Below, piece by piece: positions 1,198 through 58,124 of a stretch of 64,000 bases of DNA. How positions within the stretch are numbered: position 1 is the stretch's first letter; every line of letters begins with the position of its first letter. The stretch covers positions 231,466-295,465 of the forward strand of contig CADCEC010000001.1 in the NCBI GenBank assembly GCA_902800395.1, given 5' to 3'. A program made the translations under genes and the position numbers. The stretch comes from an uncultured Bacteroidota bacterium. GTDB taxonomy: Bacteria > Bacteroidota > Bacteroidia > Bacteroidales > P3. Below the pieces are notes generated by a model that made no database searches, had not been told where the DNA came from, and saw nothing but the letters and a program-made list of their open reading frames with translations.

Positions 1198-3741
1198 TTA
1201 TTTCTTTAATTTTAATTCTTTCCTATATACCAGCACTACGGCGCCAATCATCGTCAGCAGCGTGACGATGGAAATTATTAGCGTGATTCTGTCGAGTTGG
1301 TTCATGCGAGGTGTCTCATTCTTGAATTCGATGACATGGTCGCCGGCGGGGACCTCGAGGGCGCGGAGGATGAAGTTTACTCGGATATACTCTGTGGGCT
1401 TTCCATCGATGTATGCAAACCAGTCAGGGGCATAATGCACCTCGCTGAAGACCGCCAGACGTGTGCCAGAGGTGTGGCTGTGGTACTTCAGATAGTCGGG
1501 GTTGTAAAGTTCCTGGTGCTCCATCGCTATCGCATCTGTCGAATCGGCTTTCCACTTTCCACATTCCACGTTCCATTTGCTTGCGTCGACCACGGCAGTG
1601 GTGGCGGGGTTGAAGTCCTTCAATGCCAAAATTTCCTCGTTGGGGTTGTTGACGGAAAGAATGCTGTCGACAAACCAGCAGTTGCCCAGTGCATTGGGGT
1701 TTCTCAGCACACCGATACCCTGCTTGAACGGCAGCACCAGATAGCGGGCGTTCAGCATGTTCAGTGCGGGCATGCTGACGTTGATTTGCTCCATGCTGAC
1801 AATGTCGTTGTTGGGGTTGTAGCGGCCGAGGTAGAAGTCAATGAGGTTCTGATAGCGGCTCAGCTTGGCGGCGCTGTAGCCACCAATCTGGTGGTGGAAA
1901 GCGCTGGGCTCGGAATCGTTGAAGGTGTTGACGGCGAGATTATACACTCGATAGTAGGTGTCGCCATTTTTCTCGGCCATCATGTCGATGCCGTCGTCAT
2001 AAGGTTGTCTGACTAGTTCCACCTCCTCTTTCTCCACGAAGTTGTCGTTGTTGAGGTAGCGGCGGTCCACCCCCCATAGGTCTATCAACACCAGCGCGCC
2101 TATAATGGCCAGCGCAATGCCGGATTTCTTGATTTTTTTGTTCAGGTAGAGCCAGAGGGTGGCGGCGGCGAGGAGGATGAAGATGATGGAGCGCCAGGAA
2201 TCGCTCATGAAGAGGCTCTTGCGGTCGGCTCTGAGTGCGGAGGAGAGATGGTCGGGCCACTGAGCTTCCACTTGACTGCTGAAGTCGAGGCTTCCGGAAA
2301 GCATCACGGCGAGGATGACCAGCACCAGTGTGGCGGTAGAGATGTACAGGCCTTTGATGATGTGTTTGCGGTCCGTGTCGGAGTTCTTGGGGTCGAAAAC
2401 ATGCTTCAGTGTGAGTGCTGCCATAATGGCCATGCAGGCATTGGCCAGCACCAGTGCCATGCTGGGAGTGCGGAACTTGTTGTAGAGCGGCAGGTGGTTG
2501 AAGAGCCATTCGTTCAACGCCATGAAGTTGCCACCCCAAGAGAGCAGGATGGAAACTATCGATGCCGCCAGAATCCACCAGCGCTCAGGACCTTTCACCA
2601 CCATCATGCCCAGCAGGAAGAGCATAATCACGATGGCACCGAAGTAGACGGGGCCGCTGGTGAACGGTTGTCCACCCCAGTAGAGGGGGGCTTTATCGTC
2701 CCAGGGATATTGATATCCGTTGTCTGCAAAGGTGTTGTAGAGTTTGGAACTCTCGGGGTCGATGGGTTCGAGTGAGCCGCCACCCATAGCCCCGGGGACA
2801 AGCAGGGTGTAGGTCTCGCCGATGCCGTAACTCCAGCTGAAGGCATAATTGATGTCTAGACCGTCGGCCGTATTTTCTGCGGCTTTTTTTGCGCTTTCGC
2901 CATAGAGGTCAGCAGGAGTTACCGTGAGCTCGTTGCCGCCGCGCATGGTGTATTTGGCATATTCTTCATTCACTAGCAATACTCGAGCATTACTACCGAA
3001 AGCCAGACCGGCACCCACAAGCAGGATGGCTATTTTGAGCAGGAAAGATTTGAAACGTTTATTGAGTATGGCGATTACGAGATATGTGATTCCCAAAATA
3101 ATACAGCCGATGGCGGTGTAGAAGGTGATTTGGATGTGGTTGAACGAAATTTGCAGGATGAGTGCCAAAGTGAACAGGAAGGAACCCCATAGCACGCGGC
3201 GATTACGGGTTTTATTGTCGAGTGTGGTGTCGACAGCGCTACGTAGTGTTAGCCATATGCCGGCCAACACGGGAGCCATCATGGTCATGGCATAAGCTTT
3301 TGTGACGTGGCCAGCTTCTATTATAATAAGATTATAACTACCTAGGCCGAATCCCAATGTCCCCACCAACGCCAACCATGGCGAAAGGCCAAAGGCAATC
3401 AATGCCACATAGAACCCAAGTAGGTAGAGAAATATAATGCCCACAGAACCGCTTAATCCTAGGAGTTCGAAATCTAAAATATTTTTTACGGGATTGAATA
3501 CTGAACGTTGTGGATCGTTGGTAATTTGATATCCAGGCATGCCGCTGAACATCGAAGGGGCCCAAGAAGGAATATGTCCAATTTCCTTCTTCGCTTCCCA
3601 TTGCATGTGGGCCATCGCCTCATACTTCTGTATATCACCTTGTCGGATGATTTTGCCTTCTGTGGCAGGCCATAGATAGATGCAGGACACTGCGAAGAGT
3701 GCCACGATGATTCCCACATGAATCCAAATGCTTTTCTTCAT
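1198..3741 (-). CDS. YfhO-family multispanning membrane protein
   Basis: 847 aa, typical length for Bacteroidota YfhO proteins. A first TM helix (residues 7-25) is followed by an extracytoplasmic loop with the family-like stretch FSGMPGYQITNDPQ, about a dozen further hydrophobic helices, a soluble domain (about 590-810) and a last TM helix before the lysine-rich C-terminus. The family has a GT-C-like architecture and is linked to glycosylation of envelope polymers; the substrate here is unknown. The soluble domain contains KWNVECGKWKADS, encoded by a degenerate 7-bp array at 1548-1575. It sits upstream of two glycosyltransferases on the same strand. Confidence 0.85.
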   Translation of the reverse strand: MKKSIWIHVGIIVALFAVSCIYLWPATEGKIIRQGDIQKYEAMAHMQWEAKKEIGHIPSWAPSMFSGMPGYQITNDPQRSVFNPVKNILDFELLGLSGSVGIIFLYLLGFYVALIAFGLSPWLALVGTLGFGLGSYNLIIIEAGHVTKAYAMTMMAPVLAGIWLTLRSAVDTTLDNKTRNRRVLWGSFLFTLALILQISFNHIQITFYTAIGCIILGITYLVIAILNKRFKSFLLKIAILLVGAGLAFGSNARVLLVNEEYAKYTMRGGNELTVTPADLYGESAKKAAENTADGLDINYAFSWSYGIGETYTLLVPGAMGGGSLEPIDPESSKLYNTFADNGYQYPWDDKAPLYWGGQPFTSGPVYFGAIVIMLFLLGMMVVKGPERWWILAASIVSILLSWGGNFMALNEWLFNHLPLYNKFRTPSMALVLANACMAIMAALTLKHVFDPKNSDTDRKHIIKGLYISTATLVLVILAVMLSGSLDFSSQVEAQWPDHLSSALRADRKSLFMSDSWRSIIFILLAAATLWLYLNKKIKKSGIALAIIGALVLIDLWGVDRRYLNNDNFVEKEEVELVRQPYDDGIDMMAEKNGDTYYRVYNLAVNTFNDSEPSAFHHQIGGYSAAKLSRYQNLIDFYLGRYNPNNDIVSMEQINVSMPALNMLNARYLVLPFKQGIGVLRNPNALGNCWFVDSILSVNNPNEEILALKDFNPATTAVVDASKWNVECGKWKADSTDAIAMEHQELYNPDYLKYHSHTSGTRLAVFSEVHYAPDWFAYIDGKPTEYIRVNFILRALEVPAGDHVIEFKNETPRMNQLDRITLIISIVTLLTMIGAVVLVYRKELKLKK
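1548..1575. repeat. heptamer array (CTTTCCA-type, 4 copies) inside YfhO gene
   Basis: Four consecutive 7-bp units (CTTTCCA, CTTTCCA, CATTCCA, CGTTCCA). On the coding (minus) strand they encode part of a W-K/N-V-E-S/C-G-K cycle in the soluble domain. This is a degenerate member of the heptamer family seen repeatedly in the window. Confidence 0.7.
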
Positions 3742-3790
3742 ATTCTTAATATTCTTAACTTTTTACTCTTAATTCTTAAACTCTTAACTT

Positions 3791-6681: not shown

Positions 6682-6724
6682 GCAGAGTTAACCATTAATA
6701 GTTAACAGATAACAGTTAAGAGTT

Positions 6725-9310
6725 TTGGCAGGGACAAAGAAGAAGTCTGTAAAGAAGCCAAAGACGTCTCCGAAGCGGAGCGTGAAAGGTAAAGGCAAAG
6801 GGTCTTCCTCCAAGGGGAAGGCTTTTGCCGCTTTTCTGCGCAGCCAGCAGTTTGCCCGCATCCGTGGCGCTTTTTATGTCATGTTTGCGTTGTTCTTGTT
6901 GGTTGCGATGATGGGATACTATGCTACGGGTTGCGGCCGCGAGGCCAACTGGATCGGCAGTTTTGGCGGTGCTGTGGCATCTTTTTTTGCCTGCCGTCTG
7001 TTCGGTATTGGCAGCATGGGATTCTCTCTACTCTTCTTCGTCTACGGCATGCGGCTGTGGGACGTGGTGGTGTTGCCATGGTGGAAGACGCTGGGAAGTA
7101 CGGTTTTCTGGATGTTCTGGCTTTCTGTTACCTTGGGTTACATCGGCGTCCTTTCTGCCGCCGATATCGCTTACGAACCTTATGCCGGCATCGGCTTGAT
7201 GCTCGCTGTCCCGCTCGATGGAATGCTGAGTTGGTGGACGCTGGTGCTGCTGGTGTTTGTGGCGGTATTGTTCCTCATCTTTGTCCATAAGATGGAATTA
7301 CCGGAAATCCATGTGCCCAAAGTGGATTTCAAGAAGGTGGCGGAAGACTTAAAGCGCGTGGGAAGTGAGGAAGAGAAAGAGGAAGGAAGAAAGGAGAAGG
7401 GAGAGAAGGGAAGTGAAAGAACGGGTGTCGTGGACTTGAATGTCGAGCAGCAGCGTGAAGATCAGAAGGCGGAGTTCGACGAAGCTGCATTGAAACTGTT
7501 CCAAAGCCATACGGCTTCGAAAGACCCAGAGACTCCGAAGGCTCCAGAGACTCCGGAAGGACCAGAGACTCCGGAAGAACCCGAGGAGGTTGTTTTCGAT
7601 ATCGATGACGAGTTTGCCAAGTTGAACGAGAAACTCTCTAGCCAGCAGGAGCTTCCCACTACCGACGATGGCATCGACTTTAGGATTGAAGGGGAAACGG
7701 AAACTCAGGATAATCAGGAACCCCCAGATGACCCAGAGGAGCCAGAATCCCTCGAAGAACTCGACGATGACGACTACCGTCGCCATTATGGTGTTGACGA
7801 GCCCTATGACCCGCATCTGGACCTCGCCGACTTTGTGATGCCCGATACCGGCCTCCTCGAGGACTGGGAGGTCGCCAATACCAAGGTGACTAAAGAAGAA
7901 CTGATTGCCAACAAGGATCGCATCGTGCAGACCCTGAAGGACTACGGCATCGAGATTACTGAAATCTCGGCGCAACCCGGTCCCACGGTGACACTCTATA
8001 AAATCAAGCCTGCCCCGGGAGTGCGCATCAGCAAGATTAAAAACCTCGAGGACGACATCGCTCTGAGTCTTGCTGCCTTGGGCATTCGCATCATTGCGCC
8101 TATCCCGGGCGAAAGCAATGTGGGTATTGAGGTGCCCAATGCGAAACCCCAGATTGTGGCCATGAAGACCATGCTGGAGAGCGAAGCTTTCGAGAAGGCG
8201 AAAGAGAAGATGGACCTACCGGTGGCTTTCGGCAAGACCATCTCGAATGAGTGTTTTGTTACCGACCTTGCCAAGATGCCCCACCTTTTGATGGCAGGTG
8301 CTACGGGTACTGGTAAGTCCGTGGGTTTGAACGCTGTGCTGGCTTCGCTGCTCTATACCAAGCATCCCACAGAGTTGAAACTGGTGCTTGTTGACCCCAA
8401 GAAGGTGGAGTTCAGCCTCTATTCGGCTCTCGAACGTCATTATCTGGCTAAGATGCCTGACGAGGAAGAGGCTGTTATCACCGATGTAAAGAAGGTGGTG
8501 CGTACCCTCAACTCGCTCTGTATCGAGATGGATACCCGATATGACCTGCTGAAGCAGGCCAAGGTGAGAAAGATTACCGAATACAACGAGAAGTTCTGCA
8601 AACGCATGCTCAATCCAGAGCATGGACACCGTTACCTGCCTTATATCGTGGTGGTGATTGACGAGTTTGGCGACCTCATCATGACGGCGGGCAAGGAGGT
8701 GGAACTGCCGATAGCGCGACTGGCACAGCTAGCGCGTGCCGTGGGTATCCACTTGATTATCGCTACTCAGCGTCCTACGACAAACATTATCACCGGTACC
8801 ATCAAGGCCAACTTCCCGGCTCGTGTGGCTTTCCGCGTCACTTCAGGCATCGACTCGAAGACCATCCTCGACACCGGCGGCGCACAGCAACTTATCGGTC
8901 GTGGTGATATGCTTATCTCGTTGGCCGGCAAGGATATGATACGTCTGCAGTGTGCTCTTATCGACACACCTGAGATTGAGAAACTGGTGAAGTTCATCGG
9001 TGATCAGCGTGGCTACCCAGAAGGGTTTGAATTACCTGAATATCTGGACGAGAACGAGGAACCTAACAAAGAATTTGATGCGAAGCACAAGGATGAGTTC
9101 TTTAACGATGCCGCCCGATTGGTGGTGGCTTCTCAGTTCGGCAGCACCTCGCTGTTGCAACGCAAGCTGCAACTTGGCTACAACCGCGCTGGCCGCATCA
9201 TCGACCAGTTGGAGGCTGCGGGCATCGTGGGACCGAGCAATGGTTCCAAGCCACGCGATGTGCTCATCCATGATGAAGTGAGTCTCGAAGAATTGCTGAA
9301 GCAGTTATGA
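6725..9310 (+). CDS. ftsK: DNA translocase FtsK/SpoIIIE
   Basis: 861 aa, TTG start. A lysine-rich cytoplasmic N-terminus is followed by four TM helices (about 45-190), a charged Pro/Glu linker with imperfect PETPE repeats (about 255-285), and the motor domain. Walker A is GATGTGKS (about 525-532) and Walker B is VVVIDEFGDL (about 642-651). The C-terminal winged-helix gamma domain (VVASQFGSTSLLQRKLQLGYN region, last 75 residues) reads chromosome polarity sequences. FtsK pumps DNA at the septum during chromosome segregation and dimer resolution. The next ATG is far inside the TM block, so the TTG start is needed. Confidence 0.95.
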   Translation: MAGTKKKSVKKPKTSPKRSVKGKGKGSSSKGKAFAAFLRSQQFARIRGAFYVMFALFLLVAMMGYYATGCGREANWIGSFGGAVASFFACRLFGIGSMGFSLLFFVYGMRLWDVVVLPWWKTLGSTVFWMFWLSVTLGYIGVLSAADIAYEPYAGIGLMLAVPLDGMLSWWTLVLLVFVAVLFLIFVHKMELPEIHVPKVDFKKVAEDLKRVGSEEEKEEGRKEKGEKGSERTGVVDLNVEQQREDQKAEFDEAALKLFQSHTASKDPETPKAPETPEGPETPEEPEEVVFDIDDEFAKLNEKLSSQQELPTTDDGIDFRIEGETETQDNQEPPDDPEEPESLEELDDDDYRRHYGVDEPYDPHLDLADFVMPDTGLLEDWEVANTKVTKEELIANKDRIVQTLKDYGIEITEISAQPGPTVTLYKIKPAPGVRISKIKNLEDDIALSLAALGIRIIAPIPGESNVGIEVPNAKPQIVAMKTMLESEAFEKAKEKMDLPVAFGKTISNECFVTDLAKMPHLLMAGATGTGKSVGLNAVLASLLYTKHPTELKLVLVDPKKVEFSLYSALERHYLAKMPDEEEAVITDVKKVVRTLNSLCIEMDTRYDLLKQAKVRKITEYNEKFCKRMLNPEHGHRYLPYIVVVIDEFGDLIMTAGKEVELPIARLAQLARAVGIHLIIATQRPTTNIITGTIKANFPARVAFRVTSGIDSKTILDTGGAQQLIGRGDMLISLAGKDMIRLQCALIDTPEIEKLVKFIGDQRGYPEGFELPEYLDENEEPNKEFDAKHKDEFFNDAARLVVASQFGSTSLLQRKLQLGYNRAGRIIDQLEAAGIVGPSNGSKPRDVLIHDEVSLEELLKQL

Positions 9311-9333
9311 ATTAAGAGTTAAGAATTAAGAAT
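9310..9333. repeat. heptamer array (AATTAAG/AGTTAAG) between ftsK stop and lipoprotein start
   Basis: Three 7-bp units (AATTAAG, AGTTAAG, AATTAAG) fill the whole gap and abut the next ATG. Confidence 0.7.
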
Positions 9334-12248: not shown

Positions 12249-12253
12249 GTAAA

Positions 12254-12282
12254 ATTAAAATTGAAAATTGAGAATTGAAAAT
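12254..12282. repeat. heptamer array (TTGAAAA type) upstream of helical-repeat gene
   Basis: Four units of period 7 (ATTAAAA, TTGAAAA, TTGAGAA, TTGAAAA). They are inverted relative to the array at 12361-12391, which lies inside the signal-peptide coding region of the next gene. Confidence 0.7.
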
Positions 12283-12296
12283 AAAAAAAAACAGTA

Positions 12297-14177
12297 ATGA
12301 GAATAGAACATGCTAACCGCTATTGTAGAATATTGAAAACGGTGCTCTGCGTCAGCATAGTTTTCAGTTTTCAATTCTCAATTTTCAATTCAGCTCAGGC
12401 CCAGCGACCCAAGAAGAAGCCGGCAAAGCCGGCTCCTACCGTCATCTCTGCTGGCGACCTTCTTGCCAACTACGGCCTCGATACCACCCTTGTCAGCGAC
12501 ACTGCTGCGGCGGCCCGTTATCTCGATGAGCAGCCGCAGAACTATGTTGAACTGACCAACCTCTGTGTCTCACTCCGCACCAAGGCCCAGTCCGCTCTCA
12601 ATTCCCTCACCAATGACTATCCTCATCATGACGACCTCGTCTGGATTGACTCCACTATTGTTATTGGCGATTACGCCATCTATGACTACCGCCTCCGACT
12701 TTTTGCCGACTTCATGGGACGCCGCTCTATACAGTATTCCCGTCTTGAGCAGCAGCGCATCGAAGCCGAGAAAGAGGCGGCACGTCTCCGCGCTGAGGAG
12801 GAGGCTCGTCAGCGTCAGCTTGCACTCGACAGACAGGCCGACGACCTCCGTCTTTTCATCGAGCGCCACCACCTCGCCATCCTTGCCGCTTGCGATGGCT
12901 CCGGAATCTCCGACAAGAACAAAATCAAGGAACTCAAGGACCTCTACTACTCCTACCTGATGGTCTACAATAAGTACGACCTCTCTCCATCTCAGGCTAC
13001 CCCCGCTTCCATCGCTCAGCTCGACGAACTTAACTCCTTCCAGAACGACCTCCTCGAGAATGTCCTCGGCCAGAATTCACTACCTTATCGTATCGAGAAT
13101 TTCAAGAACCAGCTCAAGTCTCTTTGCGAGAAAGATTACTCGGACATCTACCGTTCCTATTCACGGGTCTTCAAGCAGACTTCTGTTCCCGTCACCTTTG
13201 CCTCCGTCTCCGAGTACCAGGACTACATCGTCCGCCTCCAGACCATCATCGCCGTGCAGCAGCGCTATGTCCAGACCATTGAACTGCGCAATACTATTGC
13301 CTCTAATTATGATGCTATCCACAATCTATACGCCAAGAAGTACAAGCCGGTCTTCAACGCCTACAAGGATGTGCATCGCACCGTCAATCAGGTTCCCGCT
13401 TTTACCACCAATGCTGAAAGCCTCAACTTTATCCAGTCGCTTACCGACTATGTGGAAGCCCAGCAGCTCTACCTCCAGTATTATTCGCATCTTGAGGACA
13501 TCACTCGCCGTTCCGACACCATTCTCAATGGACAACAGGGGAGTTTTAAGGATGTCTCCCGCGCCTATCGCGAGATTCAGCCTAATCTCATCCCGCTTCC
13601 CAGCTTCAAGAATCCCACCGATGCATTGCTCTACGAGCAGCAGCTCTCGCAGGCGACGCAAATCCAGAACGCCTACCTCACCACCATTGAGATGCGTACC
13701 CTCATCCAGAAACTTGATGACTCTCTTGAAGACAACCGCAAGATTGACCGCACCCTTTGGAATGGCTATAAACTCCTCCGCAAGCAGGTGGACCTTACCC
13801 CAGCCTTCAACACCGTTGAGCGCGCCCGCAGTTTTCTTTTTGTCCTCGACGACTTTGTCGGCCTCCAGCGCCTCTGCTTGAATATCCTCGCCAAACGTCG
13901 CGATGTCGCATCGAACGATAAACAGATTGATCAGCGAGCCTCCACTTTCCGTAATATCGACAAGGCTTATTCCCGCATGATGAAAGCCTATGACGACTTC
14001 GACGATATCGCCAATCTTGAGGATTTCCGTCGCTATGACCGCCAATGCGACCGCATCCTCGAGATGCAGCAAGCATTCCTAACCCTCCTCGGTTCCGAGA
14101 CGGTCAACGATGCCGACTCACGTTTGAAAAAAGAGTCAGATATTTCAAAAATCAAGCTTGTCCTTGGTCTTGACTAA
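12297..14177 (+). CDS. exported helical-repeat protein of unknown function
   Basis: 626 aa. A long signal peptide ends FNSAQAQ; its hydrophobic core (FSFQFSIFNS) is encoded by a period-7 array. After a Lys/Pro-rich start comes a charged coiled-coil stretch (about 145-185), then about six imperfect helical units of about 65-75 residues. Each unit has a Y-x3-Y/F start, a PxF segment, a helix with Q-x3-Q/L-Y and a following TIE/DI-type helix. Corresponding starts include DIYRSYSRVFKQ, PVFNAYKDVHRT, DVSRAYREIQPN and LWNGYKLLRKQV. No enzymatic motif is seen; a periplasmic scaffold role is possible. Confidence 0.7.
   Translation: MRIEHANRYCRILKTVLCVSIVFSFQFSIFNSAQAQRPKKKPAKPAPTVISAGDLLANYGLDTTLVSDTAAAARYLDEQPQNYVELTNLCVSLRTKAQSALNSLTNDYPHHDDLVWIDSTIVIGDYAIYDYRLRLFADFMGRRSIQYSRLEQQRIEAEKEAARLRAEEEARQRQLALDRQADDLRLFIERHHLAILAACDGSGISDKNKIKELKDLYYSYLMVYNKYDLSPSQATPASIAQLDELNSFQNDLLENVLGQNSLPYRIENFKNQLKSLCEKDYSDIYRSYSRVFKQTSVPVTFASVSEYQDYIVRLQTIIAVQQRYVQTIELRNTIASNYDAIHNLYAKKYKPVFNAYKDVHRTVNQVPAFTTNAESLNFIQSLTDYVEAQQLYLQYYSHLEDITRRSDTILNGQQGSFKDVSRAYREIQPNLIPLPSFKNPTDALLYEQQLSQATQIQNAYLTTIEMRTLIQKLDDSLEDNRKIDRTLWNGYKLLRKQVDLTPAFNTVERARSFLFVLDDFVGLQRLCLNILAKRRDVASNDKQIDQRASTFRNIDKAYSRMMKAYDDFDDIANLEDFRRYDRQCDRILEMQQAFLTLLGSETVNDADSRLKKESDISKIKLVLGLD
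12361..12391. repeat. heptamer array (TCAATTC/T) forming a signal-peptide core
   Basis: Four to five period-7 units read in frame as part of the signal peptide of the preceding start. Together with 12254-12282 it forms a facing inverted pair around the start codon. Confidence 0.7.
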
Positions 14178-24793: not shown

Positions 24794-24797
24794 ATTG

Positions 24798-26604: not shown

Positions 26605-28420
<1,816 letters not shown>

Positions 28421-28891: not shown

Positions 28892-28953
28892 TATATGTTC
28901 AGTATTTGTTCAGTATTTGTTCAGTAAAACACTGAACAAATACTGAACATATA
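28892..28953. repeat. 11-bp-period inverted array upstream of groES
   Basis: Units of TTCAGTATTTG repeat with period 11 and then face their complement. The outer arms (28892-28914 and 28931-28953) are a perfect 23-bp inverted repeat with a 16-nt loop. The arrangement resembles the array at 63687-63782. Confidence 0.8.
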
Positions 28954-28970
28954 CCGTAGAACAATCGCAA

Positions 28971-32288: not shown

Positions 32289-32370
32289 AATTCTCAATTA
32301 TCAATTCTCAATTCTCAATTCTCAATTTTCAATTTTCAATTTTCAATTCTCAATTCTCAATTTTCAATTT
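32289..32370. repeat. long heptamer array (TCAATTC/TCAATTT, about 11 units)
   Basis: The longest heptamer array in the window. It fills the gap between two lipoprotein genes and extends into the upstream one, where it encodes the final KLKIEN and the TGA stop. Confidence 0.85.
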
Positions 32371-34254: not shown

Positions 34255-34284
34255 ACGGCTGAAATTTTTTTTTCTTTTCTCTTT

Positions 34285-36303: not shown

Positions 36304-36337
36304 CCACTATTTTTTTTTCAAAAAAAATAAAAAATTT

Positions 36338-36365
36338 CAATTTTCAATTATCAATTATCAATTTT
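36338..36365. repeat. heptamer array (CAATTTT/CAATTAT x4)
   Basis: Four period-7 units just upstream of the -7 box of the acyl-CoA synthetase gene. Confidence 0.75.
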
Positions 36366-43166: not shown

Positions 43167-43204
43167 ATAGTGCCTATAGTTACTATAGTTCCTATAGGCA
43201 CTAT
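43167..43204. repeat. 9-bp array and 13-bp inverted repeat between the PLP lyase and elbB
   Basis: Units such as CCTATAGTT and ACTATAGTT repeat with period 9. The outer 13 bp (43167-43179 and 43192-43204) are perfectly inverted around a 12-nt loop. Possible attenuator or processing hairpin. Confidence 0.75.
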
Positions 43205-43216
43205 AATTTTATTAAT

Positions 43217-48241: not shown

Positions 48242-49450
48242 TCAGAAGGTGTAGGTGAGTCCCATCATGCGTATCTGGGGAGCGTTGGCTGAGGACTTGT
48301 AGGTGGGCAGGAGGTCGATGAAGAACTCCAGTCTGTGCAGGCTTCCGAGGCCGACTCCTATGGAGGCGCGGACGTTGAAGTGGTTGAGGATGTCGACTTT
48401 CTCAAGATTGGTGTGGCTATGGTTGTCGGCGTCGAGGCTCGAGGAGCGGAGGCGCGGTGTGAAGTTGTAGGTGGGGGAGAGGCTGGCGTAGAAGAGTACA
48501 TTCTTCCAAGGGTTGTATTTCAGTCTAACGGGCAAGCCGATGGACCAGTAATAGAGACTCTGGCGCGGCGGCGTGGCACCGAAGGAGGGGTCGAGCACCA
48601 ACTGGTCGTCCTGGGCGGCGACGACGTTGTCGAGTTGCATCCAGGTGGCGCTGGCGTCGATATTGATGTTCCAGGACCAATGTTTGCTGATGGGGAAGTC
48701 GCTGATTTGTCCTAGAATGTGGAATTCGAAGGCGTGGTTGGTGTTGTAGGGCGATCCCTGCTGGTTGCTGGAGAAGGCCATGGGCAGGGCAATGTTGAGG
48801 CCGAGACCGATGTACATGCCATGCATCTTCGGGGCGCGGTCGTAGTCGGACTGTTTGTATTCGCCCCGAATGTCGCCCTTGGTGACAGTGCTGTGGGCGT
48901 AGGCGCCGACGTCGGTCTTACCGCCCATGACATGGCGCAGGTCGAGGGTAGCATTGGTGAGCATGACGTCGATCCTGCCGCGGTTGATGAGGGTGTCGAC
49001 GATGAGGACAGCGCCGGAGTCGGCAGTGATGTCGAGTCGGGTGGAGTCGAAGTCGAAGTAGGCGATGGTGAGGCGGGCGTTCTCCTCGAGCCGGATGTTA
49101 TCGATGGGCTGCGCGGTGAAGATTTCCACCACCGTGGTGCGGGGCATCCACTGGTTCTGCAGCAGTGTGTAGTAGCAGTCGCGTTTGCTGACTTTCTTTA
49201 CGCTCAACAGGTTGGGTTCTTCTCCCTCTTCAAAGTAGTTGGCGCAGGGAGTGGTGATGACCACACGGGTGGGCGTCCCTACGGGCACCTGGATGAGGCG
49301 GGCATCCCAGCCGCTCTGGATGACGAGGTTGCTGACGAGGAACTCGTGCTCGAAGTTCTGCTCGATTTGGTAGAGGTCCTGGGCCTTTGCGGAATTGAAA
49401 GATGAAAAATGATAAATGAAAAACAGGAGGATGAGGACTAATCGTTTCAT
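48242..49450 (-). CDS. exported protein with GIN/DUF2807-like domain and C-terminal barrel
   Basis: 402 aa. Signal peptide MKRLVLILLFFIYHFSSFNSA (ending KAQ), its core coded partly by a period-7 array. Residues 30-200 show the ladder of short strands of head-GIN/DUF2807 domains (LVSNLVIQSGWDARLIQ, VVEIFTAQPIDNIRLEE, LDITADSGAVLIVDTLINRG, GDIRGEYKQSD). The last 190 residues look like an outer-membrane barrel ending RMMGLTYTF. Third gene of the ECF operon at 50592. Confidence 0.72.
   Translation of the reverse strand: MKRLVLILLFFIYHFSSFNSAKAQDLYQIEQNFEHEFLVSNLVIQSGWDARLIQVPVGTPTRVVITTPCANYFEEGEEPNLLSVKKVSKRDCYYTLLQNQWMPRTTVVEIFTAQPIDNIRLEENARLTIAYFDFDSTRLDITADSGAVLIVDTLINRGRIDVMLTNATLDLRHVMGGKTDVGAYAHSTVTKGDIRGEYKQSDYDRAPKMHGMYIGLGLNIALPMAFSSNQQGSPYNTNHAFEFHILGQISDFPISKHWSWNINIDASATWMQLDNVVAAQDDQLVLDPSFGATPPRQSLYYWSIGLPVRLKYNPWKNVLFYASLSPTYNFTPRLRSSSLDADNHSHTNLEKVDILNHFNVRASIGVGLGSLHRLEFFIDLLPTYKSSANAPQIRMMGLTYTF
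49393..49423. repeat. heptamer array in a signal peptide
   Basis: Units AATTGAA, AGATGAA, AAATGAT, AAATGAA; read on the minus strand as F-I-Y-H-F-S-S-F-N-S. Confidence 0.72.
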
Positions 49451-50662: not shown

Positions 50663-52225
50663 TTATTTTGCCTCGCAGCCAAGGATTTCGATGCGGCGGG
50701 CCATGGCGGCAGGGAGGCCGTAGATAGGGTCGGAGGATTGGCTCTCGGTGGTGGGAGCAATGGCGCCGTGAGGCTTCTGAATAATGGCAAGGTGACCGTT
50801 GTCGAGGGCATCCTCGAACATGCCGCCTCTCCACGCGCGTATCATATTAATAAAGGAGGCGATGCGACGGCGCGAGAGGTTGTGGTTGTAGTCCTCTTTG
50901 TAGACAGGACTGGCGAAGCCGGCGATGGTGATGGTGATGCTGCGACCCTCGTCGAGCTGGGCTTCCACATAGTCGAAGAGCGCCTCCACACGGTTGTAGT
51001 TGCCCACTACGCAGGTGTCGAAGAAGAGGGACATCAGGGCGGAATCGGCGGCATTGCGTTGATGGGCGATATACTCGTTTCGCAACGCGGCATAGCGGTG
51101 CTGACACTGGGTATAGGTGGTTGTAGTCGTTACCTCGCGGCTCTGCGGGTCGGGTTCGTCGTTGTGGAAATAGAGGAAGAGGGGGAACATAAAGGAGTTA
51201 AGAGTTAAGAGTTGAGAGTTAAGAGTTGAAGTGTCGATGGTGTCTAAGGATGCAATGGGTTCTTCAATTACCCACAGACTACTGTCTACCGCCCATCGGT
51301 AGAGGTCATTGCAGCAGGAGGAGTCGGTGAGGTAGTAGCTGTCGGTACGGTTGGAGGCTAGGTAGCCCGCCAGTGGGCGGTTGGTGGTGCTGTCGTAAGA
51401 GGTGATGGTGAAATAGAGGTCGTTCTCGGGACTGTTGAGGCAGGCACAGACGCTCTCGGCCTTCTGCCATGTGTTGCGCTGGCCTACAGCACAGTAGATG
51501 TCGTGGCCGCCAAGTCCGCCTTCGCGGTTGCTGCTGAAATAGAGCACGCCGTTGCGTTGGTCGTAGAAGGGAGTGAGCTCGTCATGTGCCGTGTTGACCT
51601 GAGGACCGAGATTGACGCACTCCTGTGCTCGGCCGTTCTTGATGAGGCTGTACCAGATGTCCGTCCCGCCGAGTCCGCCGGGACGGTCGCTGACGAAGTA
51701 GAGGATGATGGTGCTGTCGGCCAGTCGCCCCACAGCGGGATGCGTCGAGGTGGTGCCAGGGAGATTCACGGGTCCTTTAAGCCTCACGGGAGCCTCCCAT
51801 CCTCGGCGTTTCTTATGTTTGGCAAACCATATCTCACAATTCATGGTCTCCACATCGCCGCGGGTGAAGTAGATGTCGTGTGTCCAAGGGTCAAAGGCAA
51901 GGTTGCCTGTGTGGTCGCGGCGGTTGTTGAGACCCCAGCGGTCTTCGTGGGGCTTCCCCAGGCGACCGTTGCGGGCGATGCGTGCCTGGTAGACCTGCAT
52001 CACAGGACCGCCGATGTCGAACTGACTGTTTTTGCCTGAGGAGTGCTCCATGGAGGAATAGACCAGCACAGTGTCGCCGAGTTGGAAGGCTCCTGTCTCG
52101 CTGCCCGTGGTGTTGACGGGCTTCTCGAGGTGTGTCACGGTGTACTGCGCTTGGACAGAGTGGAAAGCGATGCTGACGCACGCCAACATTACCATCTTTA
52201 TTATCTTTCCACTTTTCAATTTCAT
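50663..52225 (-). CDS. PD40/OmpA-like protein, probable type IX secretion partner of PorP/SprF
   Basis: 520 aa from ATG 52225 (52249 would overlap porP). Signal peptide ends VSIAFHSVQAQ. PD40-type beta-propeller strands (YFVSDRPGGLGGTDIWYSL, YFSSNREGGLGGHDIYCAV) fill residues 60-320. A C-terminal OmpA-like segment follows (ITIAGFASPVYKEDYNHNLS, then RRRIASFI), which would bind peptidoglycan. This order fits PorE-like proteins that pair with PorP/SprF in type IX secretion. A heptamer array gives an in-frame TSTLNSQLLTLNS insert near residue 333. Confidence 0.75.
   Translation of the reverse strand: MKLKSGKIIKMVMLACVSIAFHSVQAQYTVTHLEKPVNTTGSETGAFQLGDTVLVYSSMEHSSGKNSQFDIGGPVMQVYQARIARNGRLGKPHEDRWGLNNRRDHTGNLAFDPWTHDIYFTRGDVETMNCEIWFAKHKKRRGWEAPVRLKGPVNLPGTTSTHPAVGRLADSTIILYFVSDRPGGLGGTDIWYSLIKNGRAQECVNLGPQVNTAHDELTPFYDQRNGVLYFSSNREGGLGGHDIYCAVGQRNTWQKAESVCACLNSPENDLYFTITSYDSTTNRPLAGYLASNRTDSYYLTDSSCCNDLYRWAVDSSLWVIEEPIASLDTIDTSTLNSQLLTLNSFMFPLFLYFHNDEPDPQSREVTTTTTYTQCQHRYAALRNEYIAHQRNAADSALMSLFFDTCVVGNYNRVEALFDYVEAQLDEGRSITITIAGFASPVYKEDYNHNLSRRRIASFINMIRAWRGGMFEDALDNGHLAIIQKPHGAIAPTTESQSSDPIYGLPAAMARRIEILGCEAK
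51196..51230. repeat. heptamer array (AGTTAAG/AGTTGAG x5) in the PD40/OmpA gene
   Basis: 35 bp of period 7. A perfect array of this unit would contain in-frame stops; the G variants present keep the frame open, suggesting selection on the translated copy. Confidence 0.78.
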
Positions 52226-52235
52226 CTTTCCACTT
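52204..52235. repeat. heptamer array at the porP end / PD40 start
   Basis: CTTTCCACTTTTCAATTTCA-type units of period 7 surround the start codon of the PD40/OmpA gene. Confidence 0.65.
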
Positions 52236-53241
52236 ATATGATGGGACATGGCAGTGCGCGTTTGGTGTTGTCTTTCTTTCCGATGCGGTAGATAACGCCT
52301 ATTTCGAAGGCACCGAGGGTGTGGCTGGCTTCAGCGAGGGTGGAGAGGTTGGCATCGTAGCTGAAAGCGAAGGTCCAGGAAAGCCAGTCGACGGCGAGGT
52401 TCACCGAGAGGGCATCGCCGTGGCGGCCGAGGAGTCCGGCACTGAAGGCAAGGTAGTTGCTGGGTCGTTCGTTGACGTACCATTTTACGTCGGCACCATA
52501 GACCAATTCGCTGAAGTTTCCTTGGTGCTGGTAGCCCACTACGGGTTGCAAACCCCACTGTGACAGCCAGCGCCATTCGCCGCGGGCGTAGAGGTTCCAC
52601 TTGCGGCTCAGGCGTGTGTCGCTCATGCCGAGGTATGAAATATCGGGCTCGTTGATGTTGCGGATGGAAAAACCTACTTTGGTGTAGATGCTTTCGGTAT
52701 GTTGGCAGAACCAAGCGATGCCGGCACCAAGGGTGGGGTAGAGGGCTTTCTCTCGCGTGAAGGACTCCGTTCCGTCTGGGAGGACGATGTCCTGTGGATT
52801 GAATCCTGTCTGACCGACACCCAACTCACCTGCCACAGAGATAAGATTGTCGCCGTTACCAACAGCCTGGTAGTAGGAGAGAATGGCGGAGGCGGAGGTG
52901 GAGCCGTAGTCGAGATCGCCGGCGCGGTCGGCGCTGACCCAGAGGCCGGCACTGAGGCCGTTCTTGTTGCGTTTGCTGCGCATCAGGCTCAACTCGCCCG
53001 TCACGCTGATGGTTTGGAAGGGAGTGGTGACGCTGGCCCACTGGTTGCGGTAGACGGCGCCAAAGCGCCCCTGCCCGTCGAAGAAGCCGCTGTAGGCGGG
53101 ATTGAAAAGCAGCGGGTCGAGGTCGAGGAAGGAGAAGTGGATGTCCTGCGCGTGTAACAAGTGGAAAGTGGAAAGTGGAAAGTGGAAAGCGATGCTGACG
53201 CATGCCACAATAACAATTTTTTTTATCTTTCCACTTTCCAC
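52234..53241 (-). CDS. porP: PorP/SprF-family type IX secretion outer-membrane protein
   Basis: 335 aa from GTG 53241. DPLLFNPAYSGFFDGQGRFGAVYRNQW is the family hallmark (NPAxxG then YRxQW), followed by barrel strands such as GLSAGLWVSADRAGDLDYG and VGFSIRNINEPDISYLG. It is linked to gliding/type IX secretion as an outer-membrane component. The GTG start and signal core (AFHFPLSTFHLLHAQ) are both made by facing heptamer arrays. It lies 15 nt downstream of tsaD and is followed by its PD40/OmpA partner. Confidence 0.85.
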   Translation of the reverse strand: MESGKIKKIVIVACVSIAFHFPLSTFHLLHAQDIHFSFLDLDPLLFNPAYSGFFDGQGRFGAVYRNQWASVTTPFQTISVTGELSLMRSKRNKNGLSAGLWVSADRAGDLDYGSTSASAILSYYQAVGNGDNLISVAGELGVGQTGFNPQDIVLPDGTESFTREKALYPTLGAGIAWFCQHTESIYTKVGFSIRNINEPDISYLGMSDTRLSRKWNLYARGEWRWLSQWGLQPVVGYQHQGNFSELVYGADVKWYVNERPSNYLAFSAGLLGRHGDALSVNLAVDWLSWTFAFSYDANLSTLAEASHTLGAFEIGVIYRIGKKDNTKRALPCPII

Positions 53242-53254
53242 TTTCAGCTTTCCT
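53161..53254. repeat. facing inverted heptamer arrays at the porP start
   Basis: 53161-53188 has four GTGGAAA units; 53227-53254 has CTTTCCA, CTTTCCA, CTTTCAG, CTTTCCT. They are separated by about 38 bp. The right block supplies the GTG start and M-E-S-G-K; the left block supplies the signal-peptide core. Confidence 0.82.
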
Positions 53255-53256
53255 CT

Positions 53257-54270
53257 TTATCGGGTGTAGGGTGGCAAAGATATGTCGGCGAATTCGCCTT
53301 TGATGTACTTGAAATAGCCGGCGATGCCTACCATGGCGGCATTGTCGGTGCAGAACTTGAAGGGCGGGATGAAAGCCTGCCAATGGTGTTTCTGGCAGAT
53401 GTGCTCCAACTCGCTTCTCAGCAGGCTGTTGGCGCTGACACCGCCGGCAATGGCCACCTGCCGCACCTTATGTTCGATAGCGGCACGCTCCACTTTCTTG
53501 ATGAGGAATCCCACGATGGTCTTCTGGATAGAGGCGCAGAGGTCGGCCTTGTGCTTCTCAATGAAGTCGGGGTCTTCTTTCAGCCTATCTCGTAGGAAAT
53601 AAAGGAACGAGGTCTTGATGCCGCTGAAAGAGTAGTCGTAGCCAGGAATTTGCGGTGTGGCGAAGTGGTAGGTGTCGGGATTACCTTCTTTGGCCAGTCG
53701 GTCGATAATGGGGCCACCGGGGTAGCCGAGGTCCATAATCTTCGCAGCCTTGTCGATGGCCTCGCCGGCGGCATCGTCGATGGTCTGCCCTAGTATTTCC
53801 ATGTCGAAGTGACTGTGAAGTAGTAGTATCTGCGTATGACCACCGGAAACGAGCAAGCAGATGAACGGAAACTGGGGCGCCGGCATCTTGCCGGCATCCT
53901 CCGGCTTCTGGATGAAATGGCTCAGCACATGCGCCTGCAAATGATTCACCTCGATAAGGGGTTTCTTTAATGCCTGTCCGAAGCTCTTGGCGAAGCTCAC
54001 GCCCACCATCAGGCTGCCCATCAGTCCTGGGCCGCGGGTGAAGGCTACGGCGTCGATGTCCTCTTTGCGGATGCTCGCCTCGCGGATGGCACCGTCGACT
54101 ACGGGGATGATATTCTGCTGGTGTGCGCGGGAGGCCAACTCTGGCACCACGCCGCCATACTGTTCGTGAACCTTCTGGCTGGCAATGACATTCGAGAGCA
54201 GCATATCGTCACGCAGTACCGCCGCCGAAGTGTCGTCGCAACTGGATTCTATAGCTAAAATAACACTCAT
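53257..54270 (-). CDS. tsaD: tRNA N6-adenosine threonylcarbamoyltransferase
   Basis: 337 aa from ATG 54270 (MSVILAIESSCDDTSAAV). EVNHLQAHVLSHF gives the HxxxH metal site, PFICLLVSGGHTQI and DDAAGEAIDKAAK the ASKHA nucleotide site, and VAIAGGVSANSLLR completes the fold. It makes t6A37 of ANN-decoding tRNAs with TsaB/TsaC/TsaE; essential in most bacteria. First gene before porP, with a divergent promoter shared with the ROK gene region. Confidence 0.97.
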   Translation of the reverse strand: MSVILAIESSCDDTSAAVLRDDMLLSNVIASQKVHEQYGGVVPELASRAHQQNIIPVVDGAIREASIRKEDIDAVAFTRGPGLMGSLMVGVSFAKSFGQALKKPLIEVNHLQAHVLSHFIQKPEDAGKMPAPQFPFICLLVSGGHTQILLLHSHFDMEILGQTIDDAAGEAIDKAAKIMDLGYPGGPIIDRLAKEGNPDTYHFATPQIPGYDYSFSGIKTSFLYFLRDRLKEDPDFIEKHKADLCASIQKTIVGFLIKKVERAAIEHKVRQVAIAGGVSANSLLRSELEHICQKHHWQAFIPPFKFCTDNAAMVGIAGYFKYIKGEFADISLPPYTR

Positions 54271-54287: not shown

Positions 54288-54302
54288 CTAAACTTGTCGG
54301 AA

Positions 54303-54348: not shown

Positions 54349-54375
54349 CACTTTAAAAATAAATGTACAATTGAT

Positions 54376-55355: not shown

Positions 55356-58124
55356 ATGAAAAGAGCATTTATTATCCTTCTGGCGGTAGTGCTTTTCGCC
55401 GCCTGTGGCGAAAAAACATTGACCTCCTATGTCAACCCCTTCGTCGGCACCGACGGCCACGGACACACCTTCCCCGGCGCCATCGTCCCCTTCGGCCAAA
55501 TCCAGCCTTCGCCCGACACCCGTCTGGAAGGCTGGGACGGCTGCAGCGCCTATCACTACTCCGACGACACCATCTATGGCTTCTCCCACACCCACCTCAG
55601 TGGCACCGGCTGCGAGGACTACGGCGATGTGCTGCTCATGCCGGTGGACGAACTTCAGATGCGCGACATCAAGTTTGGCGATTCCATGCGGCTGAACTAC
55701 TGCTTCGCGTTTTCCCATAATGACGAGGCGGCTCAACCTGGATATTACAGCGTAAAACCCTTCGAAGGACGTATTACGACTGTTAAACAGGTGGAACTCA
55801 CCGCCGACCGCCGTGTGGCCTACCACCGTTACACATTCGGGCAGAGAATGAATGGCATTGTGCTCGACCTGCGTCATCGCGACGTGCTGCTGAGTGGCAA
55901 AATTATGCAGAAAGACGGCCTTATCGTGGGCTGGCGTGAGAGTTCGGCATGGAATCCCGACCAGCATCTTCATTTCGCCATCCGCAGCAGTGTACCTATC
56001 GAAGGAGTTAGAATGAGTGATGATTCTACCCAGGCGGTTCTGCTTTTGCCCAATGGCACCGAGCAGGTGGAGTTGCAGGTGGCCATCAGTGGTGTCGATA
56101 TCCAAGGCGCTATCAACAACCTTAATGTCGCCCAATATAAGGACTTCGACGCTGCCCGCCGCGGGGCCGACAGCACTTGGGAGGCCGCCCTCGGCAAGCT
56201 GAAAGTGGAAGGCGGCACCGATGAGCAGAAGCGCTGCTTCTACACCGCTCTCTACCATTGCATGACCTCGCCCTACCTCTGGAGTGACGCCGACGGACGC
56301 TACCGCGGCACCGACAACCAGATACATACCGTCGACCCCGGCCGCGAGGTCTATACCGTCTTCTCCCTCTGGGACACCTACCGCGCTCTGCATCCCTTGC
56401 TGACGCAGATAGAGCCCGAGCGCACGGTCGACTTCGTCTATACCGCCATGAAGAACTTCGAGCAGGGTGGGGAACTCCCCATGTGGGAACTGGCCAGCCA
56501 CGAGACCCACTGCATGATAGGTTACCACGCCGTCCCTATGCTCCTCGAAGCCTATATCTATTTGGCCGAATCTGACGGCACCATCGCCGGCTATACCCCC
56601 AAGCAGTTGCTCGACGCTATGGTGGCCACCAGCAACCGCACTGAGGCCCACCGTGCATATGGCAAGCAAGGATATCTCTCGTCTGAACTCGATAACGAGT
56701 CCGTCAGCAAGACCCTCGAATACGCCTATGATGACTGGTGCATAGCGAGGATGGCAGAAATTGCCGGCGATACTGCTACTGCCCGCAACTACTGGATTCG
56801 CTGCCAGAGTTGGCAGAACATCATCGACAGCAATGGCTTTGCCCATCCCAAGCGCAACGGCGGCTGGGTGACGCCCTTCAACCCCACTGAGGTGAACAAC
56901 CACTTCACGGAGGCCAACTCTTGGCAGTACAGCACTTACGTACCGCACGACATCGATGCGTGGGTCGAACATATAGGTGGCAAGAACCAAGCAATCGCCT
57001 TCTTGGATAGCCTTTTCGAGGGCCACAACGCCATGAGTGGACGTGATCAGGCCGATGTTACTGGCCTCATCGGAATGTACGCCCACGGCAACGAGCCCTC
57101 CCACCATGCCGCCTGGCTCTATGCTCTCCTCGGCCAGCCTGAGAAAACGGAGAAGTATGTCCACAAGATTCTCAACGAACTCTATACCAGCAAGCCTGAC
57201 GGCCTCTGCGGCAACGAGGACTGTGGCCAGATGAGTGCCTGGTATGTGCTGGCCTCCCTCGGTCGCTACGAAGTCTGTCCGGGTAGCGGCATTTGGGTGG
57301 AAACCAAACCCATCTTCACCTGTCACTTCCCACTTTCCACTTCCCGCTTTCCACTTTCCACTTTCTCCGATTCCCTCCGCATCACTCCCTGCCCCATTTT
57401 CGACGATTGGCGCCAGCAGGTAACCGATTCCCGTCAGGTCAGCCTCTCTCTTCCCGGCTATTCCGATGCCGAGATTCTATACGGTAAAAACATGATTTGC
57501 CCCGATTGCGAAGACCTATTCCATCCCTACACGGAGCCCATCAAGGTCACTGGTCGGGATTTGGGAGAGTATGTCGTCGCTAAGGCCAAGGTCAAAGGAC
57601 GCTTGATGAGCCAGACCGTGACGCAGAATTACAGCCGTGTGCAGACCGACATGAAAGTGACCTATCTCACGCAGCCTGCTCCGCAATACACCGAGAATGG
57701 CCCCGAGGGTATGGTCGACGGCGTATTCGGCAACGCCAACTATCGCATCGGTGGTTGGCAGGGCTGGCAAGGAGACATGGTGGCTGTGATCGAGCTCGAG
57801 AAAGTGAAAACCGTCAAGCATGTCGGTGCCCATTGTTTGGAAAACATGCGCTCGTGGATTTTCTTCCCGAAGAGTGTCAGTGTGGAATACAGCATTGACG
57901 GACAAATATGGAAGCCTTATGGCGAGGTGAAGAACACACAATTCGCACCCGTACATGATCGACAGGAGGAAAGCGTGGTGCATTGCTTCGCTGTGAACGG
58001 CTCGGCTCAGGCCAAATATTTGAAAATTACGCTCCACAACTATGGCCTATTGCCCAGCTGGCACATCAGTGCCGGCCAGCAGGCGTGGCTCTTTGTGGAC
58101 GAACTGGAAATATGGAAACTTTAA
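55356..58124 (+). CDS. GH92 alpha-mannosidase lipoprotein with C-terminal F5/8-type domain
   Basis: 922 aa, lipobox FAAC. The GH92 start SYVNPFVGTDGHGHTFPGA and PFGQIQPSPDTRLEGWDGCS, FSHTHLSGTGC, and the C-terminal catalytic WELASHETHCMIGYH and GNEDCGQMSAWYVL motifs are present. The enzymes remove alpha-mannose from glycans such as host N-glycans using Ca2+. Residues about 656-672 (HFPLSTSRFPLSTF) come from an in-frame heptamer array within the catalytic region. A discoidin-like domain (VEYSIDGQIWKPYGEV) ends the protein. Confidence 0.92.
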   Translation: MKRAFIILLAVVLFAACGEKTLTSYVNPFVGTDGHGHTFPGAIVPFGQIQPSPDTRLEGWDGCSAYHYSDDTIYGFSHTHLSGTGCEDYGDVLLMPVDELQMRDIKFGDSMRLNYCFAFSHNDEAAQPGYYSVKPFEGRITTVKQVELTADRRVAYHRYTFGQRMNGIVLDLRHRDVLLSGKIMQKDGLIVGWRESSAWNPDQHLHFAIRSSVPIEGVRMSDDSTQAVLLLPNGTEQVELQVAISGVDIQGAINNLNVAQYKDFDAARRGADSTWEAALGKLKVEGGTDEQKRCFYTALYHCMTSPYLWSDADGRYRGTDNQIHTVDPGREVYTVFSLWDTYRALHPLLTQIEPERTVDFVYTAMKNFEQGGELPMWELASHETHCMIGYHAVPMLLEAYIYLAESDGTIAGYTPKQLLDAMVATSNRTEAHRAYGKQGYLSSELDNESVSKTLEYAYDDWCIARMAEIAGDTATARNYWIRCQSWQNIIDSNGFAHPKRNGGWVTPFNPTEVNNHFTEANSWQYSTYVPHDIDAWVEHIGGKNQAIAFLDSLFEGHNAMSGRDQADVTGLIGMYAHGNEPSHHAAWLYALLGQPEKTEKYVHKILNELYTSKPDGLCGNEDCGQMSAWYVLASLGRYEVCPGSGIWVETKPIFTCHFPLSTSRFPLSTFSDSLRITPCPIFDDWRQQVTDSRQVSLSLPGYSDAEILYGKNMICPDCEDLFHPYTEPIKVTGRDLGEYVVAKAKVKGRLMSQTVTQNYSRVQTDMKVTYLTQPAPQYTENGPEGMVDGVFGNANYRIGGWQGWQGDMVAVIELEKVKTVKHVGAHCLENMRSWIFFPKSVSVEYSIDGQIWKPYGEVKNTQFAPVHDRQEESVVHCFAVNGSAQAKYLKITLHNYGLLPSWHISAGQQAWLFVDELEIWKL
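57324..57365. repeat. heptamer array (CACTTTC x6) in the GH92 gene
   Basis: Six period-7 units, 42 bp, so 14 codons (two full H-F-P-L-S-T-x cycles) are read without a frame change. Confidence 0.85.

Follow-up and report, generated by a model that had tools for sequence, protein, structure and literature searches.

Why is a stretch of a bacterial genome scattered with short tandem arrays that have a repeat unit of exactly 7 nucleotides, and how could such arrays come to lie inside genes as well as between them? The stretch (the window, 64,000 nucleotides) is part of contig 1 of the 2.41-Mb, 21-contig genome of an uncultured rumen Bacteroidales (G000); among the best 80 matches kept for one protein of the window, the named relatives are uncultured rumen or gut Bacteroidales genomes from metagenomes, with Candidatus Colimorpha merdihippi at 91%. 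Some of the arrays pair with fixed polarity into hairpins, similar whole copies of which are dispersed within a genome and are present in frame in genes that have hairpin-free orthologs; the leading units differ by species, and the units differ at orthologous sites. Given this anatomy and distribution, it appears fairly likely that the hairpins are a mobile palindrome family without a gene of its own, resembling the Rickettsia palindromic elements (RPEs), with stem arms of tandem heptamers that turn over concertedly.

Tandem heptamer arrays and the hairpins they build

The excess of period 7 is real and is a trait of the genus of the window or its close kin. An earlier note on the window had reported at least 20 such arrays; a period-7 scan with a score threshold of at least 10 found 26, Tandem Repeats Finder concurs, and all 19 coordinates named in the note fall on, or at most 3 nt from, the independently found arrays. 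The window contains 15 exact lag-7 runs of at least 10 matches, against a mean of 0.0 across 10 dinucleotide shuffles, with 0-4 runs at each of the other lags from 4 to 13, and 8 and 9 runs at the multiples 14 and 21. The check for an excess at 7 that the note had proposed was run on 40 stretches of the same genome (800 kb of the 2.41 Mb) and gave 144 exact lag-7 runs versus 2 in one shuffle, the second lag below 14 being 11, with 36 exact runs. Tolerant arrays in 864 kb of this genome numbered 221 for period 7, 60 for period 9, 44 for period 11 and 42 for period 8; period 7 thus leads both the exact and the tolerant counts, contrary to the lack of excess on which the note would have given up its claim.

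Lag-7 self-matches also lie far above shuffles in 80 related loci. The genomes compared are one per species, drafts throughout and metagenome-derived for most or all, and about a third of this genome and about a tenth each of four others were sampled. The density per 100 kb is 43 arrays in G002, 25.6 in G000, 20 in G012, 15 in G036 and 5.7 in G015, while other Bacteroidales genera gave 3 period-7 arrays in 338 kb (20 stretches, one short stretch being all N) and Escherichia coli K-12 none in 50 kb.

Beyond what the note had described, the analysis revealed a C-free strand, one-way inverted pairing, a GCTGNCGCA core, dispersal of whole hairpins and species-specific units. The G-rich strand of the arrays is nearly devoid of C (2.2-3.9% in each of five genomes), and the layout of the element is 5'-(C-free heptamer)n, 0-6 nt, GCTGNCGCA in some copies, a loop and (reverse-complement heptamer)n-3', with a total length of about 70-120 bp. 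When neighbouring reverse-complement arrays at most 120 bp apart were taken as an inverted pair, the C-poor arm came first in 67 cases and second in 1 (16:0 in this genome, 21:0 in G002, 8:0 in G012, 6:0 in G036, 3:0 in G015 and 13:1 in other relatives); the binomial value of 5e-19, which holds if the pairs are independent, is too small, given that some of the hairpins counted are orthologous copies and hence not all independent. A complementary stretch scoring at least 14 within 120 nt was found 3' of the C-poor strand for 31 of 220 arrays in G000, 33 of 100 in G002, 20 of 48 in G012 and 8 of 37 in G036, and 5' of it for 6, 1, 0 and 0 arrays, respectively. The core, matched in at least 7 of 8 fixed letters and at most 12 nt from an array, lies just 3' of 53 of 582 arrays on the C-poor strand versus 2 on the opposite strand, and at one or other arm in 28 of the 67 hairpins. 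Folding of four hairpins indicated strong structures for all four (z -6.4 to -9.7).

Whole hairpins recur at unrelated sites. The AGTGGGT-armed hairpins at L194 and L196 of G012 share 97.5% identity across 80 bp, down to the order of variant units, and further copies in G012 have 83-91% identity. With a copy defined by at least 75% identity across at least 80% of the length, another copy was present inside the sample for 7 of 8 hairpins in G012, 5 of 19 in G002, 5 of 12 in G000, 0 of 4 in G036 and 0 of 3 in G015. The paired arrays of the window, and one array with the core, are (strand where assigned):

12251-12390: inverted pair (AAAATTG)n...(AATTTTC)n; TGCGTCAGC precedes the right arm, which reads as the signal-peptide-like MRIEHANRYCRILKTVLCVSIVFSFQFSIFNSAQAQ
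16931-17021, minus strand: inverted pair (GGAAAGT)n...(ACTTTCC)n inside a radical-SAM-like gene (16322-17224, minus; PF04055 below the cut-off)
28304-28415: intergenic inverted pair (TAAAGTT)n...(CTTTAAA)n
52159-52235: array with GCTGACGCA core at the start of gene 50663-52249 (minus)
53159-53258: 100-bp hairpin (AAGTGGA)n-cgat-GCTGACGCA-spacer-(CTTTCCA)n, fold -43.9 kcal/mol, z -7.96

The 100-bp hairpin spans a gap plus the start, similar to a signal peptide, of a PorP/SprF-like gene (52234-53241, minus; PF11751), with the translation IKKIVIVACVSIAFHFPLSTFHLLHAQ, and parts of it have 85.5-85.7% identity over 69-77 nt to the array at 52159-52235. Core and array read as part of signal-peptide-like starts (CVSI, then FHFPLST or FQFSIFN) at 53190-53241 and 12348, and similar starts were seen by eye at 52172 and in loci of G002, G012 and G015.

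Arrays inside genes and at orthologous sites

Genes were called with a crude caller of our own (codon log-odds, greedy), which treats 74% of the sample as coding and misses AT-rich genes. On these calls, 141 of the 221 arrays lie between genes and 80 within them, which agrees with the "in gaps and in genes" of the note; the dispersed arrays fall into 56 unit classes, and the several units that the note had named are a few among these. The leading class, AAAGTGG (equivalent to CTTTCCA; 46 of 221 arrays), has no stop in either strand, as had been claimed, and a stop-free unit is open in every frame because 7 and 3 share no factor; a period of 7 eases the presence of hairpins and arrays in genes. 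That arrays are tolerable there is borne out by stop-free sense-strand units in 73 of the 80 in-gene arrays, a proportion that is partly due to construction. Arrays of the AAAGTGG class occur 38 times in genes and 8 times between genes, and arrays of the AAACTTT class, which has TAA on both strands, 0 and 20 times, a contrast that is partly built in because the gene caller cannot put an array with a stop into an open frame. Of the 141 arrays outside genes, 128 have a stop on at least one strand. The supply of stop codons at gene ends was rejected as the whole function of the arrays: stop-free AAAGTGG arrays are found chiefly in genes (38 of 46), and therefore stops filter the arrays and do not explain them.

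The 59 hairpins with loops of at most 60 nt comprise 26 within called genes, 8 across a gene end and 25 between genes. In G012, the genes for RadA (TIGR00416) and TruA (TIGR00071) contain the AGTGGGT hairpin in frame; in-frame hairpins with other units are present in a dihydroorotase gene (NF006688, L025) and its orthologs in L038, L043 and L050, and a hairpin of this genome is located within the gene for a fumarate reductase/succinate dehydrogenase flavoprotein (TIGR01811, L109). The topoisomerase III (TopB, NF005829) of L046 has VIGAVKSDELGVKSDELGVKSEADATQELKTPNSKLITEF in place of VLGEVEKVEF in L037, which is 97% alike, and is 30 residues longer than its counterparts in L037, L016 and L015; at this site, 16 nt in L016 replace 106 nt of L046. 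Predicted peptides of the inserted loops include VKSDELGVKSDELG in TopB and LPTTHYPLPT in RadA, and lone arrays lie within the AlaRS, PurL and FolC genes.

In 30 genomes, the TruA and RadA loops are mostly short and otherwise contain hairpins or arrays of differing units, read by eye as AGTGGGT (G012), AGTGTTT (G002), AATGATG (G000) and AATTCGG (G015) in TruA, and as AGTGGGT (G012 and G019), an 8-mer hairpin (G007), an AAAGTGG-like unit (G008) and AATTCCG (G015) in RadA. Length differences are all multiples of 3 for TruA, for which 28 of 30 sequences matched the flanking pattern and 2 did not, and in 24 of 29 cases for RadA, the five others (-97 or -106) coming from partly aligned flanks; between its flanking motifs RadA is open in one frame in 30 of 30 genomes. 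In the hairpin comparisons listed, gaps included, the length difference is a multiple of 3 in 100 of 125. These copies would be a remarkable instance of selfish palindromes being translated in housekeeping enzymes (RadA, TruA, dihydroorotase and topoisomerase III), and they would thereby offer a natural experiment on protein loop gain. An unrelated palindrome (CCTCACCCCC, CCCCTCTCC / GGAGAGGGG) is present in the same tolerant loops of other species, in L253 (TruA) and L227 (RadA), and at L194 18520-18560.

At orthologous sites the unit changes frequently. The FolC site (L110 12652) has (ACTTTCC)n here, (AATTTTC)n in G002 and a shorter array or none in others, with equal length in 5 of the 6 orthologs shown; the AlaRS site (L107 8543) has AAAGTGG in this genome and G036, an AAAATTG-like unit in G002 and no array in three others, and the lengths are all equal. 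In 39 orthologous array pairs, the unit is identical in 9 and different in 30, the net length difference is 0 in 14 and the C-poor strand is reversed in 8; a unit fixed by the locus alone was rejected, only 9 of the 39 pairs sharing it exactly. The units do not differ in 23% of orthologous pairs versus 8% of random pairs of the same two genomes, and therefore descent counts too. One array differs by 14 bp between L046 and L037, and likewise between L057 and L069 (93% alike).

The units are specific to species. Three consecutive AAAGTGG units (one mismatch, overlapping matches) were matched 138 times in this genome and 0 times in 79 genomes of other genera, with 21 matches in this genome for the reversed control pattern, which is itself a unit here; three AGTGGGT units were matched 76 times in G012 and 0-16 times in 40 other genomes of the genus. 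The AAAGTGG class makes up 46 of 221 sampled arrays here, 0 of 101 in G002, 4 of 48 in G012, 7 of 37 in G036 and 0 of 13 in G015.

Origin of the arrays and relation to known repeats

If the hairpins are a mobile palindrome family, copies would arise by copy-and-insert through an activity of the host or of the element. Copies with stop-free arms, mostly AAAGTGG here, would survive in genes, in length-tolerant protein loops, and copies bearing TAA or TGA would survive mainly between genes. Slippage and misaligned copying in 7-nt steps might homogenise the unit inside the arms, and copying between the arms would preserve the hairpin, so that the structure would persist as the unit drifts. Lone arrays could be solo arms, decayed hairpins or hairpin seeds, and seeds might become hairpins if the C-poor strand folded back at its 3' end and was copied.

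Several results weigh against such a family. Lone arrays are the majority, 189 of 220 arrays here having no partner arm at the threshold used, as do 58-78% in G002, G012 and G036 (a partner is present in 14-42%, depending on the genome), and only about 9% of the arrays carry the GCTGNCGCA core. The load is uneven across the genus (5.7 arrays per 100 kb in G015, 0 in 30 kb of G022 and 2 in 31 kb of G009). No clear target-site duplication was read by eye at the printed sites, and no transposase was found as the mover, PF01797 being the family counted. The Y1 transposase, of the REP-associated tyrosine transposase (RAYT) type, is missing from 12 of 41 genomes, including G019, which has a hairpin at the RadA site (the draft is 81% complete), and G008, which has a lone array there. 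The net length of 0 versus array-free orthologs at the AlaRS and FolC sites resembles overwriting and not insertion, and at the radical-SAM site (16931-17021) the arms flank a 34-nt middle that contains a stretch kept, as judged by eye, in array-free orthologs. No clear link was seen between Y1 transposases and hairpins that would point to RAYT as the mover, and pure insertion for every array was rejected, given the net length of 0 at several in-gene sites. Rfam gave no match in the window.

The strongest rival is simple-sequence-repeat slippage, in which a polymerase slips by 7 nt and arrays grow or shrink where they are tolerated, none of them moving. It is in accord with a period of 7 far above neighbouring periods, with the many units and their homogenisation within arms, with the 14-bp differences in close relatives, with the lone arrays being the majority here, and with orthologous arrays that are closer in unit than random pairs (no difference in 23% versus 8%), as local descent predicts. 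However, slippage does not yield a C-free strand, an arm order of 67:1 or a shared loop core, nor does it yield a unit that abounds in one genome but is absent from what was sampled of another, and the nearly identical 80-bp hairpins at unrelated sites show that these were copied and are not of purely local origin. Slippage very likely acts as well; as the whole account it is rather unlikely.

Selection on structure, with the hairpins as functional RNA or DNA signals such as bidirectional terminators or mRNA stabilisers, is improbable. In gaps between co-oriented genes, the C-poor strand is the sense strand in 38 of 44 cases at gene stops and in 16 of 19 touching both genes, compared with 20 of 37 in the middle of a gap and 5 of 16 close to starts (the last not significant alone). 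This bias at stops (38:6) would suit a signal, as would the strong folding of all four hairpins, the 25 of 59 hairpins between genes and 8 over gene ends, and one gap that, as read by eye, has five units in seven genomes. However, 26 of the 59 hairpins lie within called genes, some of them for conserved enzymes, many orthologs have no hairpin, and only 1 of the 33 hairpins outside genes is located between convergent genes. Replication strand was tried as the cause of array orientation and rejected, the sign along contigs being inconsistent by eye.

A more radical proposal is that a trans-acting activity adds, at 3' ends, a C-free heptamer word particular to the species, filling gaps and loop-coding stretches throughout the genome and rewriting older arrays to the current word. 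If this were true, hairpins, arrays and parts of essential proteins would be re-authored together as species diverge, as a bacterial analogue of templated end-addition; it is a long shot, made somewhat less likely still by the units of orthologous arrays, which differ less than those of random pairs. In a specific version, which is highly improbable, broken or single-stranded DNA is filled by C-free heptamers that are added to 3' ends, at both ends of a gap, from a genome-specific template. C-poor 3' ends do point into the variable stretch (38:6 at stops, 67:1 in pairs, and a near-start trend of 11:5 that is not significant alone), and equal-length replacement and species-specific units would follow. 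However, one genome contains 56 unit classes, arrays at orthologous sites are more alike than random pairs, whole hairpins are copied with their loops, and no template RNA or enzyme was identified. Contingency loci, in which in-gene arrays toggle proteins by frameshifts of 7 in either direction, would fit the stop-free units in genes and the 14-bp differences in close relatives, but are the least credible reading, the hosts examined including RadA, TruA, AlaRS, PurL and FolC and not surface proteins, and length differences at the AlaRS/FolC-type in-gene sites and the TruA site all being multiples of 3.

How does a mobile palindrome family with heptamer arms relate to known repeats? The earlier note had known of no named element like this, and on that point it does not stand, since heptanucleotide repeats have been published (Mrazek, 2007; PMC4692102; PMC4679880), while its picture of dispersed arrays of period 7 with several units and a stop-free CTTTCCA does. 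As cited in PMC4679880, heptanucleotides are the most abundant class of long simple sequence repeats (LSSRs) in most bacterial genomes, and 7 nt was proposed to be perhaps the length that interacts with the polymerase (Mrazek, 2007). GGGAATC repeats are described for Xanthomonas and Nostoc, with inverted pairs noted in Xanthomonas (PMC4692102), and TAACTGA repeats for Beggiatoaceae and five Bacteroidetes (PMC4679880). The present arrays resemble these LSSRs, as far as the passages cited describe them, in being tandem 7-nt units beyond chance, dispersed and mainly intergenic, but one main unit per genome is described there (near variants are rare in the Beggiatoaceae genome), compared with 56 classes here, and the present case is further set apart by the strand without C, the constant order of the arms, the core in the loop and the hairpins that lie in frame in enzyme genes.

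RPEs are described as palindromes of about 150 bp that carry a conserved peptide (Ogata, 2000, 2002, cited in PMC10969869). By that description, they share with the present hairpins the dispersal of small palindromes between genes and in frame in unrelated conserved genes, as an extra peptide in the case of the RPEs, but the heptamer arms vary by species and locus. Long-hairpin palindromes, dispersed copies and in-frame presence versus orthologs without the hairpin (TopB with 30 additional residues, RadA and TruA) were all found; a conserved element sequence and peptide were looked for and not found, and because of this the hairpins were not filed as RPEs. Within the Bacteroidales, BrickBuilt and 464/PgRS of Porphyromonas gingivalis resemble miniature inverted-repeat transposable elements and contain tandem repeats with units of 23 and 41 nt, but according to the parts of PMC4596501 consulted their tandem units lie between short terminal inverted repeats, whereas here the inverted arms are themselves the 7-nt tandem repeat. 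Repetitive extragenic palindromic (REP) sequences and REPINs are likewise short dispersed palindromes, some of them intragenic, with GTAG/CGTC tags at one end and stems of 5-13 bp (PMC3733652 and PMC3116915, in part); the other strand of the core (TGCGTCAGC) contains CGTC and the variant TGCGTAGC contains GTAG, but the stems here are long and tandem and the motif lies in the loop. The hairpins were not filed as REPs because stem length and tag position differ.

The short tandemly repeated repetitive (STRR) heptamers of cyanobacteria are dispersed heptamer arrays as well. To our knowledge, they have no hairpin arms or in-frame copies. Heptanucleotides of Calothrix are mentioned in PMC4692102. 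By title and abstract opening, no open-licence PMC paper among the matches listed gives an account of tandem-heptamer palindromes in Bacteroidales, the portions of PMC4666352 and PMC12699852 consulted contain no matching element, and the paper texts among the matches listed for the core 9-mer appear, by title, to be about primers and constructs. Thus, heptamer repeats were previously known, and their combination with hairpin arms, polarity, a core and in-frame copies is without an account in the literature searched. The arrays, hairpins and words, comparable at orthologous sites in about 40 related genomes, provide a handle on why period 7 is favoured among bacterial repeats.

Further features of the window

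The lone arrays of the window lie inside genes, at gene ends and in gaps, and one palindrome has arms of another period:

1548-1575, minus strand: in-gene array CTTTCCA
6695-6724: array AGTTAAC in a gap
9305-9333: array TTAAGAA spanning a plus-strand gene's stop codon
17485-17523: array TATCAAT across a gene end
21102-21134, plus strand: in-gene array ACTTTCC
21825-21858, plus strand: in-gene array CACTTTC, retained in G036 (L018 is the same genome, with 100% identity over 19 kb)
32240-32269: array AATGTTG/AATGATG where a minus-strand gene starts
32289-32370: array AATTCTC, 11.6 copies, the longest in the window, over the stop of a minus-strand gene
32866-32895: array GTTGAAG within a short, weakly called gene
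34265-34304: array CTTTTCA/TTTTCTC across a gene end
35419-35449: array AATGAAG where a minus-strand gene starts
36322-36363: array ATCAATT between divergent called genes
43167-43205: palindrome with 9-nt tandem arms (CTATAGTTA)
49396-49423: array TGAAAAA where a minus-strand gene starts
51195-51227: in-gene array GAGTTAA (plus-strand reading)
57316-57365, plus strand: in-gene array CACTTTC in a GH92-like gene

Orthologs of the array at 21102-21134 have TTTTCAA (L135), CTTTCAA (L139), degenerate arrays or none, with a length that is equal or shorter by 3. The gap at 43167-43205 and its orthologs in L009, L010, L012, L028, L041 and L200 contain, as read by eye, five different tandem-armed hairpins in seven genomes; the arms have 7- or 9-nt repeats of other units in the orthologous gaps, and therefore period 7 is not required for the hairpin structure. 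Inverted 11-nt tandem arrays (TATTTGTTCAG / CTGAACAAATA) lie at 28892-28954, about 200 nt from gene 28421-28690. Elsewhere in the sample, AAAGTTT arrays in direct orientation recur with spacers of about 50-100 nt at L103:13678-14160, L104:3859-4088 and L125:8825-9040, and these places have part of their sequence in common.

A second dispersed element of about 90 nt, with the fixed core CAAGGTGTTCAGTTCCCCTTCGGGGTG (one frame reads HPEGELNTLKKKKNAVKK), lies inside five called genes of the sample:

L089:8312-8401
L096:9950-10027
L097:10158-10248
L113:5599-5683
L126:12051-12145

It is also present in L312-L338, and a genome search gave 11 matches here, 6 in G002 and matches in 10 of 41 genomes in all, a few of which concern the array part only. 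By eye, it is flanked on both sides by CTTTCCA-like heptamers here and by other units in G002 and G015, and it may land in heptamer arrays. Finally, three adjacent minus-strand open reading frames at 23494-25532 were missed by the gene caller; they lie in a region of low GC content (0.47 over 24-28 kb) and are perhaps foreign.

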